From Methanolinea sp. (lineage in GTDB: Archaea > Halobacteriota > Methanomicrobia > Methanomicrobiales > Methanospirillaceae), in contig JASFYI010000003.1 of assembly GCA_030055515.1 (NCBI GenBank), forward strand, positions 62,001 through 126,000: a DNA stretch of 64,000 bases, read 5' to 3'. This document shows positions 1,362-58,853 of the stretch, one piece after another; positions within the stretch are counted from its first letter, which is position 1; each line of letters begins with the position of its first letter. The position numbers and the translations under genes were made by a program. Under the pieces are notes generated by a model that saw only the letters and a program-made list of their open reading frames with translations, was not told the origin of the DNA and did not search any database.

Positions 1362-2690
1362 ATGGCATCACTTTCTGCACGCGCAGCCCCTTTTCTTCTC
1401 GTGGGTGCACTCGCGGTGGTCGCACTCGCCGGCCATGGAACCGCGATGATCGGGGGAGGGACAGGGTACTTCGAGATCACCTCTGTCCCCTCCGGGGCGA
1501 GCGTGTTCTTCGACGATACGTACAGGGGGACGACACCCGTCACCATCCCGGTCTCGACGACGGGGAATCCCACCCACACCATCCGCGTCACGAAGACAGG
1601 GTACATGGAGTGGACCACGGTCCACGAGGGTAACCCGTTCGAGGGCGAGACGATCCACATCAGCGCGACACTTATGCCCATGCCGGGCGGCGCGAAAGGT
1701 TACTACAGGATCACCTCGAGCCCCTCGGGCGCAGCGGTCTACTTCGACGACACCTACAGGGGGACGACGCCCGTCACCGTGGAGGTTTCCACCACGGGGA
1801 CACCCGGCCACACCGTGAGGCTCGTCCTCTCCGGGTACCAGGAGTGGACGAGCTACCAGCCCGGGAACCCGGGGGAGGGCGAGACCATCGCCGTGAACGC
1901 GTACCTCCAGCCGCTCCAGAGCTACGGCAGCATCACGGTCACCTCGTCGCCGTCCGGTGCGACGGCCGTCCTCGACGGTGCGCAGTCGATGGTGACACCC
2001 TGCACGTTCCACAACGTGGTCCCGGGCACCCACACCGTCCAGGTGACCAAGCCAGGGTACCAGGCGTGGAGCACGACGACGACCGTCGAGGCAGGGCGCA
2101 ACACGCAGGTCTTCGCGTCGCTCTCGCCGGTTGCGCCGGCGCCGGGCTCGATCTACGTCACCTCGGTTCCCTCGGGCGCGGGCGTCTACGTCGACGGGAC
2201 GTACTACGGGCCCTCCCCCCAGCTCGCGTCAGGTCTCTCGCCCGGGTACCACGAGGTCCGGATATCCCTCTCCGGGTTCCAGGACTGGGTGGGGAACGTG
2301 ATGGTCAAGTCGGGGGAGACGACGCGGATCTCCCAGGCCCTCTCGGTCACCCCGACGCCCTCCCCCGTCGCGGGCACGGGGTCGCTCTCTGTCCAGTCCA
2401 GCCCGCCCGGTGCGAGCGTGTACATCGACAACGAGTACATGGGGATCACGCCGCTCGTCGTCCACTCGGTCGCGCCCGGGATGCACACGGTCCTCCTGAC
2501 CCACCCCGGGTACGCGGACTGGAAGGCGAGTGTCCAGGTCCAGAGGGATGTCCAGACTCCCCTGGACGCGACGCTCTCCCCCGCGGCACCCACGGCGATG
2601 CCGACGAAGTCTCCGCTTGCCGCGCTGCTGGCCGTGCTCGCGCTCGCCGCGTGCGCCCTCGCTCCCGCCGCGGGGCGACGCCGGGGGTAA
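1362..2690 (+). CDS. PEGA-repeat surface protein
   Basis: The 442-residue product has a signal peptide (hydrophobic about residues 8-25), then five tandem PEGA domains of about 70 residues. Each begins with a variant of 'I-T-S-x-P-S-G-A-x-V-x-x-D' and contains a glycine-proline 'G-T/I-T-P' turn. A C-terminal hydrophobic helix and basic tail GRRRG follow. PEGA domains are beta-rich modules found in extracellular archaeal and bacterial proteins, so this is probably an exported, membrane-anchored envelope protein. The ATG at 1362 is preferred to the GTG at 1326 because AGGAGA lies just upstream and the leader begins there. The palindrome over its TATA box suggests regulated expression. Confidence 0.88.
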   Translation: MASLSARAAPFLLVGALAVVALAGHGTAMIGGGTGYFEITSVPSGASVFFDDTYRGTTPVTIPVSTTGNPTHTIRVTKTGYMEWTTVHEGNPFEGETIHISATLMPMPGGAKGYYRITSSPSGAAVYFDDTYRGTTPVTVEVSTTGTPGHTVRLVLSGYQEWTSYQPGNPGEGETIAVNAYLQPLQSYGSITVTSSPSGATAVLDGAQSMVTPCTFHNVVPGTHTVQVTKPGYQAWSTTTTVEAGRNTQVFASLSPVAPAPGSIYVTSVPSGAGVYVDGTYYGPSPQLASGLSPGYHEVRISLSGFQDWVGNVMVKSGETTRISQALSVTPTPSPVAGTGSLSVQSSPPGASVYIDNEYMGITPLVVHSVAPGMHTVLLTHPGYADWKASVQVQRDVQTPLDATLSPAAPTAMPTKSPLAALLAVLALAACALAPAAGRRRG

Positions 2691-56228: not shown

Positions 56229-56331
56229 TCAGCACGGTCCCGCGGGGACTTCGCCCGCGGCCCGGAATTCCCGCCGCGAGTCCCAACAGGTGCCTTTAAT
56301 ACCCTGACAGGTGAACCCTTCTCGCTGTCTT

Positions 56332-56406
56332 GGGCCCGTGGTCTAGTCGGTTCATGACGTCGCCCTTACACGGCGGAGGCCGCCGGTTCGAATCCGGCCG
56401 GGCCCA
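56332..56406 (+). tRNA. tRNA-Val (anticodon UAC)
   Basis: A 75-nt cloverleaf with acceptor arms GGGCCCG/CGGGCCC and discriminator A, anticodon loop CTTACAC between CGCC/GGCG pairs, and T arm CCGGTTCGAATCCGG. No CCA is encoded. A TATA-like CTTTAATAC at about 56294 lies 38 bases upstream. Confidence 0.95.
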
Positions 56407-56873
56407 TGGCGACGGGTTCCCGGGCACTCCCCTGTTTCGCACGGCCACCACGTGCAGGCGACAACACCGGGGATCCCGACCCCTGCTTTTCGGCCGGTGC
56501 GCCGGCCACCCTCCCCGCCACGCGGACCGCTCCCGGGAAGGGAGGGGACACAATAGAAAAGTATTTAAGGGGTACCTGCGGCACCCCTCCCCGCGGGGGC
56601 CGGATTTTCACCCCATTTTATGCGATCCCTGTCAGACACACCCCTTTCCGGGATCCGGAGCCGTCCCGTATACGATTCCCCCTGCGTTCCGGAAAAATTA
56701 ATAATTGCGGTTATTTTTTCAATTGGGTCGATTATAATTCTTTTTCCACGTGGATGGATAATCTCGGTCCAATCGGAAATTCCGTTCCAAGACGTCTGAC
56801 GCATGTCAAAAGGGGCGAGGAAAATACCCTTTCGACCATGGCATTTATATAGGAGAACGTAAAATGGTTTTTT
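56407..56873. other. Intergenic region between tRNA-Val and the RNA candidate
   Basis: No credible coding frame. There is a TATA-like AAAAGTATTTAAGG near 56557-56570 followed by small GC hairpins (GGGGT/ACCCC around 56571-56589, CCCCGCGGGG just after). An unusually A/T-rich stretch spans 56690-56755, and TTTATATA lies at 56844-56851. Whether another short transcript starts near 56595 cannot be decided by eye. Confidence 0.45.
56844..56851 (+). promoter_or_regulatory. TATA box of the structured RNA candidate
   Basis: TTTATATA is one of the best TATA matches in the window. The predicted initiation 26-27 bases downstream is 56873-56874, exactly where the terminal stem of the RNA candidate begins. 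Confidence 0.55.
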
Positions 56874-56984
56874 GGTGCACCGTTCAGCGGGCGACGCCTG
56901 CCTGAAAAAGCACTATACAATCAAGGTGGCATCAATATAGGCAGTACTCCAGGCTTTAAAGGTGGCGGCGCTTCCCGGTACACC
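56874..56984 (+). ncRNA. Candidate structured non-coding RNA (about 110 nt)
   Basis: The ends GGTGCACCG (56874-56882) and CGGTACACC (56976-56984) pair over 8 of 9 positions. Inside are a strong hairpin (TTCAG-CGGGC / GCCTG-CTGAA, 56883-56906), a helix AAAGC (56907-56911) with GCTTT (56953-56957), and within it CTATA with TATAG. AAGGTGGC occurs twice (56923-56930 and 56959-56966). The 5' stem could instead pair with CGGTGCATC at 57042-57050, giving an RNA of about 177 nt. It does not match tRNA, 5S, SRP or RNase P RNA as I know them. No protein is encoded. Confidence 0.5.
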
Positions 56985-57020
56985 AGAATGAGATATCACA
57001 TCGGAGTGAAAAAGGTATCG

Positions 57021-57050
57021 GATCGCACCGGGGAGGTTCCCCGGTGCATC
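57021..57050. terminator. Strong GC hairpin, terminator or alternative RNA stem
   Basis: Nine-base arms GCACCGGGG and CCCCGGTGC (57025-57033, 57039-57047) are extended by GAT/ATC. On the minus strand a T-run follows about 10 bases later, which suits the end of the FKBP transcript. On the plus strand it closes the RNA candidate region. Confidence 0.5.
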
Positions 57051-57177
57051 CCAAAGTTCACCGTAAAAGACTGCTTTTCCAAGAAGGAGATTTTATAGGG
57101 AGATTCCTCGGAACCGGCCGACAAGGAGGACCGGGTGGTCCGCGGTCGACCCGCGAGGGTCACGGCCTTACCAGTTC

Positions 57178-57959: not shown

Positions 57960-58853
57960 ATGGCAGAAGACGAGTACAGGGTCGCCAGTGTCGGCGGGAA
58001 GGAGGTCCAGTGGGATCCCGCGCAGCTCCGCAAGGTCCGGGAACACCCGTGCTTCTCTGAAAAGGCATGCCACGCGTTCGGGAGGTGCCACCTCCCGGTC
58101 GCCCCCAAGTGCAATATCCAGTGCAACTACTGCATAAGGGACTTTGACTGTGTCAACGAGAGCAGGCCCGGCGTGACGACGAAGGTCCTCTCCCCCCGCG
58201 AGGCGGTCGACCTCGTCAGGAGGGCGATCGAGAAGTTCCCCTACATAAAGGTTGTCGGGATCGCGGGGCCCGGTGAACCCCTCGCGAACGAGGAGACGTT
58301 CGAGACGCTCCGGCTCCTGCACGAGGAATTCCCCAACGTCATCAAGTGCATCAGCACGAACGGCCTCCTCCTCCCGGAGAAGATCGATCTCCTCCAGAAG
58401 TACGACGTCGGGAACATCACGGTCACGCTCAACGCGATCGATCCCGACATCGGCGCGAAGATCTACCAGTTCGTGGATTACAAGGGGAAGAGGTACGAGG
58501 GGCGCGAGGCCGCAGAGATCCTGATCAAGAACCAGCTCGAGGGCATCAGGAAGGCGGTCGAGCGGAAAATGATCGTGAAGGTGAACACCGTGTACATCCC
58601 GGGGATAAACGAGGACCACATCCCGGAGATCGCGCGCAAGGTCGGGGAGATGGGCGTCTACACCTTCAACATCATCCCCCTAATCTCCCAGTACAAGTTC
58701 TCGCACATCGCCCCGCCCACGCCCGAGATGAAGAGGAAGATGCAGGACGAGTGCGCGAAGTACGTCCGCCAGATGAGGCACTGCCAGCGGTGCAGGGCAG
58801 ACGCGATAGGGCGGCTCGGAAAGGACGTCCAGTCCTGCCTGTACTCCGACTGA
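57960..58853 (+). CDS. nifB: NifB-type radical SAM protein
   Basis: The 297-residue protein has the radical SAM cluster motif CNIQCNYC (C51, C55, C58), an early HPCFSEKACHAFGRCHLPVAPKC segment, GIAGPGEPLAN, STNGLLLPEK, TLNAIDP and the C-terminal CQRCRADAIGRL. These features fit NifB, which makes the 8Fe-9S-C precursor of nitrogenase cofactor; archaeal NifB lacks the C-terminal NifX-like domain, as here. No other nif gene is in the window, so nitrogen fixation cannot be claimed from this alone. A terminator hairpin follows the stop. Confidence 0.9.
   Translation: MAEDEYRVASVGGKEVQWDPAQLRKVREHPCFSEKACHAFGRCHLPVAPKCNIQCNYCIRDFDCVNESRPGVTTKVLSPREAVDLVRRAIEKFPYIKVVGIAGPGEPLANEETFETLRLLHEEFPNVIKCISTNGLLLPEKIDLLQKYDVGNITVTLNAIDPDIGAKIYQFVDYKGKRYEGREAAEILIKNQLEGIRKAVERKMIVKVNTVYIPGINEDHIPEIARKVGEMGVYTFNIIPLISQYKFSHIAPPTPEMKRKMQDECAKYVRQMRHCQRCRADAIGRLGKDVQSCLYSD

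Follow-up and report, generated by a model that had tools for sequence, protein, structure and literature searches.

What is encoded in the spacer beside the tRNA-Val gene of Methanolinea sp., and on which of the two strands? In the window (the whole stretch of DNA analyzed, 64,000 nucleotides of contig JASFYI010000003.1, from an archaeal genome of 1.76 Mb referred to below as G000), this locus adjoins tRNA-Val (positions 56331-56407). It is separated from the next plus-strand gene, which starts at position 57960 and which we take to be radical-SAM-like, by a minus-strand gene that is presumably FKBP-like, both being named from their protein sequences. The original prediction, made from the letters alone, was that a TATA-driven, free-standing structured RNA is encoded on the plus strand, that two mutually exclusive closing stems make it a switching RNA, and that it matches no recognizable archaeal RNA. 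All the sequence features invoked in its favor were found to be present as described, including the absence of any plus-strand gene for 900 bases.

The prediction of a conserved and structured RNA, standing free next to tRNA-Val, was borne out by a covariance model and by the alignments of relatives, in which conservation sets the locus apart from its flanks. The model, built from 25 distinct copies, identified the RNA in 31 of the 232 genomes of the order, all of which belong to a single family (Methanolinea/Methanoregulaceae) and to 8 of 40 genera; the class-level search covered the same 232 genomes and returned the same 31 positives. Searches based on DNA similarity gave matches in 31 of 101 genomes, and the similarity is real in 29 of them, the matches in G041 and G044 amounting to only 31 and 23 bases and not corresponding to this RNA. 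The stem-loop-stem pattern was found in 31 public records, two of them named only as Euryarchaeota and the others as Methanolinea, Methanoregulaceae or Methanomicrobiales. Viral contigs gave no matches. Screening the window with cmscan yielded two tRNAs only, and since the Rfam covariance search gave no family match in the region, with nothing above chance at E values up to 10, the statement that the RNA resembles no recognizable archaeal RNA also stands as far as the Rfam families are concerned.

The RNA adjoins the FKBP-like and radical-SAM-like genes in 21 of the 29 loci L001-L029, and tRNA-Val was found in 18 of them; in genus g16, another tRNA-Val (gac) is present. In the three loci checked, each from a different genus, the divergent copies, called type B here, are encoded downstream of a gene presumed from its protein sequence to be adenine-deaminase-like, and share its strand. 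Additional copies of the unit are present at L031 in G005 and at L032 and L033 in G007. Two alignments were used: A1 contains 25 of the 28 distinct copies, without L010 (which has an N in the hairpin), L033 (a degenerate paralogue) and L043, while A2 contains 29 rows, 27 of them distinct, and includes L033 and L043 again.

The strand carrying the structure is the minus strand, read from position 56984 to 56874, and not the plus strand as was first proposed. When the segment was folded in the window, only 2 of 200 shuffles were as good as the minus strand, versus 46 of 200 in the case of the plus strand (z scores in Table 1). The only hairpin in which the minus strand is not the lower in energy is the degenerate paralogue L033. 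In the shuffle test, which took 12 of the 28 distinct hairpins, the minus strand beat dinucleotide shuffles in all 12 representatives (z from -2.3 to -5.4); the z scores of the plus strand ranged from -2.5 to +0.3. The contrast is strong rather than absolute, since the plus strands of L024, L025, and L027 also beat most shuffles, only 4-8 of 200 folding as well. With the closing stem P1 removed, the minus strand was still lower in energy in 11 of the 12 representatives. Among the divergent copies, the minus fold of L220 was matched by none of 300 shuffles and that of L221, which is weaker, by 19 of 300. Changes on both sides were observed in 10 of 25 pairs, a count reached by none of 500 shuffles, although counts of this kind lean towards structure because the alignment was fitted to it. 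A sequence-only RNAalifold analysis was dropped; helices P2-P4 fell apart in the alignment. The GGTG..CACC closing stem of the original prediction is present and helps to distinguish the strands: the plus-strand segment GGTGCACCG at 56874-56882 pairs with CGGTACACC at 56976-56984 over 8 of 9 positions, and the invariant C.A mismatch left at position 5 reads as U.G on the minus strand.

Table 1. Positions of the features of the locus in the window, with the evidence for each.
Feature	Positions	Strand	Evidence
Structured RNA, about 111 nt	56874..56984	-	Covariance model match at G000:C3:118874-118984, minus strand; minus fold z -2.98 vs plus -0.70; better fold on the minus strand in 27 of 28 hairpins
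Putative ends of the minus RNA	5' GGUGUACCG near 56984; 3' CGGUGCACC at 56874	-	Suggested by stem and promoter spacing
Apical loop GATGCCACCTTGAT, antisense to ATCAAGGTGGCATC	56920..56933	-	Exact 14-mer three times in G000; core 64-85% unpaired in 13 copies (predicted)
P1 closing stem, 5' arm GGUGUACCG	56976..56984	-	Position 5 is U.G in 26 of 27 distinct sequences; the remaining eight pairs do not vary
P1 closing stem, 3' arm CGGUGCACC	56874..56882	-	Same stem analysis as for the 5' arm
T-rich box TTTTTCAC resembling a TATA box, 21 nt 5' of the minus RNA	57006..57013	-	Box at such spacing in 22 of 29 copies
TATA box TTTATATA, 22 nt before GGTGCACCG	56844..56851	+	26 of 29 copies have TTTAWATA, at a distance of 22-24 nt
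Conserved box GTCTGACGCATGTCAAAA, upstream of the plus TATA box	56794..56811	+	Alignment of relatives
GC hairpin holding the second closing stem originally proposed	57020..57051	Unassigned	Letters vary between relatives

What the original prediction had overlooked is the apical loop and the sites matching it elsewhere in the genome. On the minus strand the loop reads GAUGCCACCUUGAU, with the core GCCACCUUGAU, and the complement of the loop is a 14-mer, about 0.01 genomic copies of which would be expected by chance according to our own arithmetic from base counts. The three exact occurrences in G000 are located in the RNA itself, 64 nt after the stop codon of a histone gene (PF00808), within its 3' UTR, and over the ribosome-binding site of a secreted-protein gene, directly before the start codon of a 277-residue protein which has a signal-peptide-like start and no Pfam match. 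Across 149 genomes, the exact 14-mer gave 52 matches in 31 genomes and the reversed pattern gave none; judging from their context, 30 of these matches are in the RNA, 15 in histone 3' UTRs and 5 in leaders, the two left over being in G047 and G059. If the minus strand is transcribed, it would carry an exact complement of 11-14 nt covering the Shine-Dalgarno sequence of the secreted-protein mRNA and, at the end of the histone message, the site in the 3' UTR. In predicted duplexes, calculated with accessibility ignored, all 31 of the pairs favored the minus strand, two of them by less than 1 kcal/mol relative to the plus strand.

Some further features of the sites were observed. The AUCAA half of the site is often paired with an upstream strand in a leader hairpin, although shuffles showed such pairing at a frequency below 5% in no more than 5 of 16 cases. 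The histone 3' UTR site of G000 (L070, about 1690-1780, minus strand) is flanked by GC-rich arms, and since these look able to pair, the site would be in a loop. The type B plus strands of L053, L221, and L220 carry AAGGTGGCATC followed by an ATG and a short open frame, like the target leaders, with a longer gap to the ATG in L220. At L298 (G001) and L311 (G032), AATCAAGGTGGC occurs just before the start codon of genes whose products have a signal-peptide-like start, and which are possible further targets. A broad scan with the pattern TCAAGGTGGCN{2,5}ATG was dropped; in the contexts retrieved, its matches were mostly in coding sequence, the others being in leaders already known and in those of a few more secreted-protein genes.

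The distribution of the sites was compared with that of the RNA, in counts which are not independent since the genomes are related: allowing up to 3 mismatches, the histone site was identified in 18 of 19 loci from RNA-bearing genomes and in none of 11 from genomes without the RNA (30 fetched loci examined, out of all the histone matches), and the leader site, ATCAAGGTGGC followed by 3 nt and ATG, in 15 of 24 surface-protein homologues (24 of the 29 fetched loci), all 15 from RNA-bearing genera. The exception in the case of the histone is G014, where the RNA is present and the histone site is absent. The homologues without the leader site are those of G012, G014, G032, and G036, which have the RNA, and of G018, G020, G028, and G034, which do not; the site is present with one change in G027, and it is present in G006, a genome 76% complete in which the RNA was not found. 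The loop and the site core are nearly invariant across copies. Where target changes do occur, that of G027 (ATCGAGGTGGC) keeps the pairing via G.U, and those of G025, G026, and G042 break a pair. In genus g16 (L125-L128), CAAC replaces the terminal CATC of both the histone and the leader sites, and the RNA loop has not changed in step.

Promoter-like boxes were found on both strands. The TATA box described at promoter distance in the original prediction is conserved as such in relatives (Table 1), and it is the sole box in the type B copies. The T-rich box of the minus strand lies 21-23 nt before GGTGTACCG in the copies which have it, and is absent in all five type B copies; it reads TTTTTTAT in most relatives, whereas it is degenerate in the window and altered in L027 as well. 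Similar T-rich boxes precede tRNA-Glu(ttc) and tRNA-Thr(tgt) in G000, and in g16 as well as in type B copies a U-tract is located closely 3' of the minus RNA. The box GTCTGACGCATGYCAAAA, which precedes the plus TATA box by about 33 nt, is conserved between genera and is a possible regulator site. From the boxes we infer that type A copies carry two facing promoters; since the conserved TATA box points at the plus strand, an opposing transcript from that strand is likely.

The explanation which best fits these data is a trans-acting antisense small RNA encoded by the minus strand of the locus, a reading to which we attribute a probability of about 0.58. The sequences show that the locus is conserved, which strand is structured, that the complementarity is exact and that the RNA and the histone site occur together; that either strand is transcribed, that pairing takes place in the cell and in which direction it regulates are inferred. 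Its long irregular hairpin (P1-P4) would present the apical loop core to the site AUCAAGGUGGC in target mRNAs. In the secreted-protein mRNA, pairing would be expected to block translation, since the site contains the Shine-Dalgarno sequence and lies 3 nt before the AUG. In the histone mRNA, where the site is in the 3' UTR just before a U-tract, pairing should for that reason alter the stability of the mRNA, or the 3' UTR might serve instead as a sponge for the small RNA. The facing plus-strand promoter probably produces an opposing transcript carrying the target sequence, which could neutralize the small RNA as an anti-sRNA.

It might be argued that the plus strand is itself the functional product, a decoy which carries AUCAAGGUGGCAUC in its loop, like the mRNAs, and titrates a common factor, either protein or RNA, binding the site in the histone and secreted-protein mRNAs. 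The plus TATA box occurs at a fixed spacing in 26 of 29 copies, compared with 22 of 29 for the minus box, and the type B copies have no other; yet L031 and L032 have lost it while keeping the minus box and the structure. The site has the same sense in the plus-strand RNA, the leader and the 3' UTR, it is followed by an ATG in the type B plus strands of L053 and L221 as in the leaders, and both kinds of targets in g16 have CAAC, as if a single factor read both. An RNA of this kind is poorly reconciled with a plus strand folding no better than shuffles in 9 of the 12 representatives, or with the invariance of the C.A mismatch in P1. We consider the decoy rather unlikely, and give it the weight it has because the plus TATA box is more widely shared than the minus box and because there is no clear compensation between loop and targets (the g16 targets having changed alone).

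A guide RNA of the H/ACA or C/D box type, acting on rRNA or tRNA, would account for the stable closed hairpin, the strong conservation and the proximity of a tRNA gene. This proposal seems quite improbable: no Rfam family was matched, the complementarity of the plus RNA to 16S and 23S rRNA was within the range of shuffles, the best scores of the minus RNA and of the loop against rRNA were 13.2 and 8.3 (shuffle maxima 14.6 and 10.6), and the best tRNA complementarity, 10 nt to tRNA-Val(gac), scored 10.3, where the 90% point of shuffles was 10.8. Least probable of all is the plus-strand switching RNA originally proposed, since although both pairings exist in the window, where GGTGCACCG also pairs with CGGTGCATC at 57042-57050 over 9 of 9 positions with one G-U, the 5' segment can pair completely with the region downstream on the plus strand only in that copy out of 29 (at best 8 of 9 in 4 copies, 6-7 of 9 in 24), the plus strand is weakly structured, no gene follows on that strand for 900 bases, and two conserved exclusive stems placed upstream of a gene, as in riboswitches, are not what is found here.

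Returning to the antisense small RNA, a broader proposal can be put forward tentatively, as a possibility less likely than not even in our own estimate: that of a dual-strand RNA gene in which facing promoters would produce an antisense small RNA and its full complement from one hairpin. Throughout a clade of methanogens, the loop would tie a histone mRNA 3' UTR, and thus chromatin, to the translation of a secreted surface protein via the ribosome-binding site of the latter, and the small RNA would be reset by the opposing transcript. Neither a conserved element in a histone mRNA 3' UTR nor a hairpin with two promoters facing each other would be expected in the gene regulation of archaea. Several genera have retained the RNA together with its loop and two unrelated target sites, so that the pairing is open to test by simple mutations. 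To our knowledge, few archaeal small RNAs have targets supported by conservation. In the mostly open-access literature searched, no title or abstract opening on small RNAs of Methanolinea, Methanoregulaceae or Methanomicrobiales, or on archaeal antisense small RNAs to histones, describes this RNA.

Among the known systems, sponge RNAs of the CsrB/RsmZ type carry the ribosome-binding motif of their targets, a likeness which applies to the decoy explanation; a sponge of this type has many motif copies per RNA, and a single copy was found in each RNA here. The sRNA154 of Methanosarcina mazei, which has a role in nitrogen regulation, is likewise a free-standing regulatory RNA of a methanogen, in another order, its sequence having been compared with ours only through Rfam. 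The nearest precedent for the mechanism is sRNA162 of the same species, an intergenic RNA which is reported to mask a ribosome-binding site by base pairing and is also antisense in cis (PMC3510493). Like it, the Methanolinea RNA is intergenic and structured, with a predicted unpaired target-binding region, and would likewise mask a ribosome-binding site and be antisense in cis. According to the same study, sRNA162 is 191 nt long, is restricted to Methanosarcina and binds via a single-strand linker which is its most variable part (PMC3510493). In the Methanolinea RNA, by comparison, the putative binding segment is the apical loop, which is the most conserved part and has persisted in eight genera, and a second site is provided by a histone 3' UTR.
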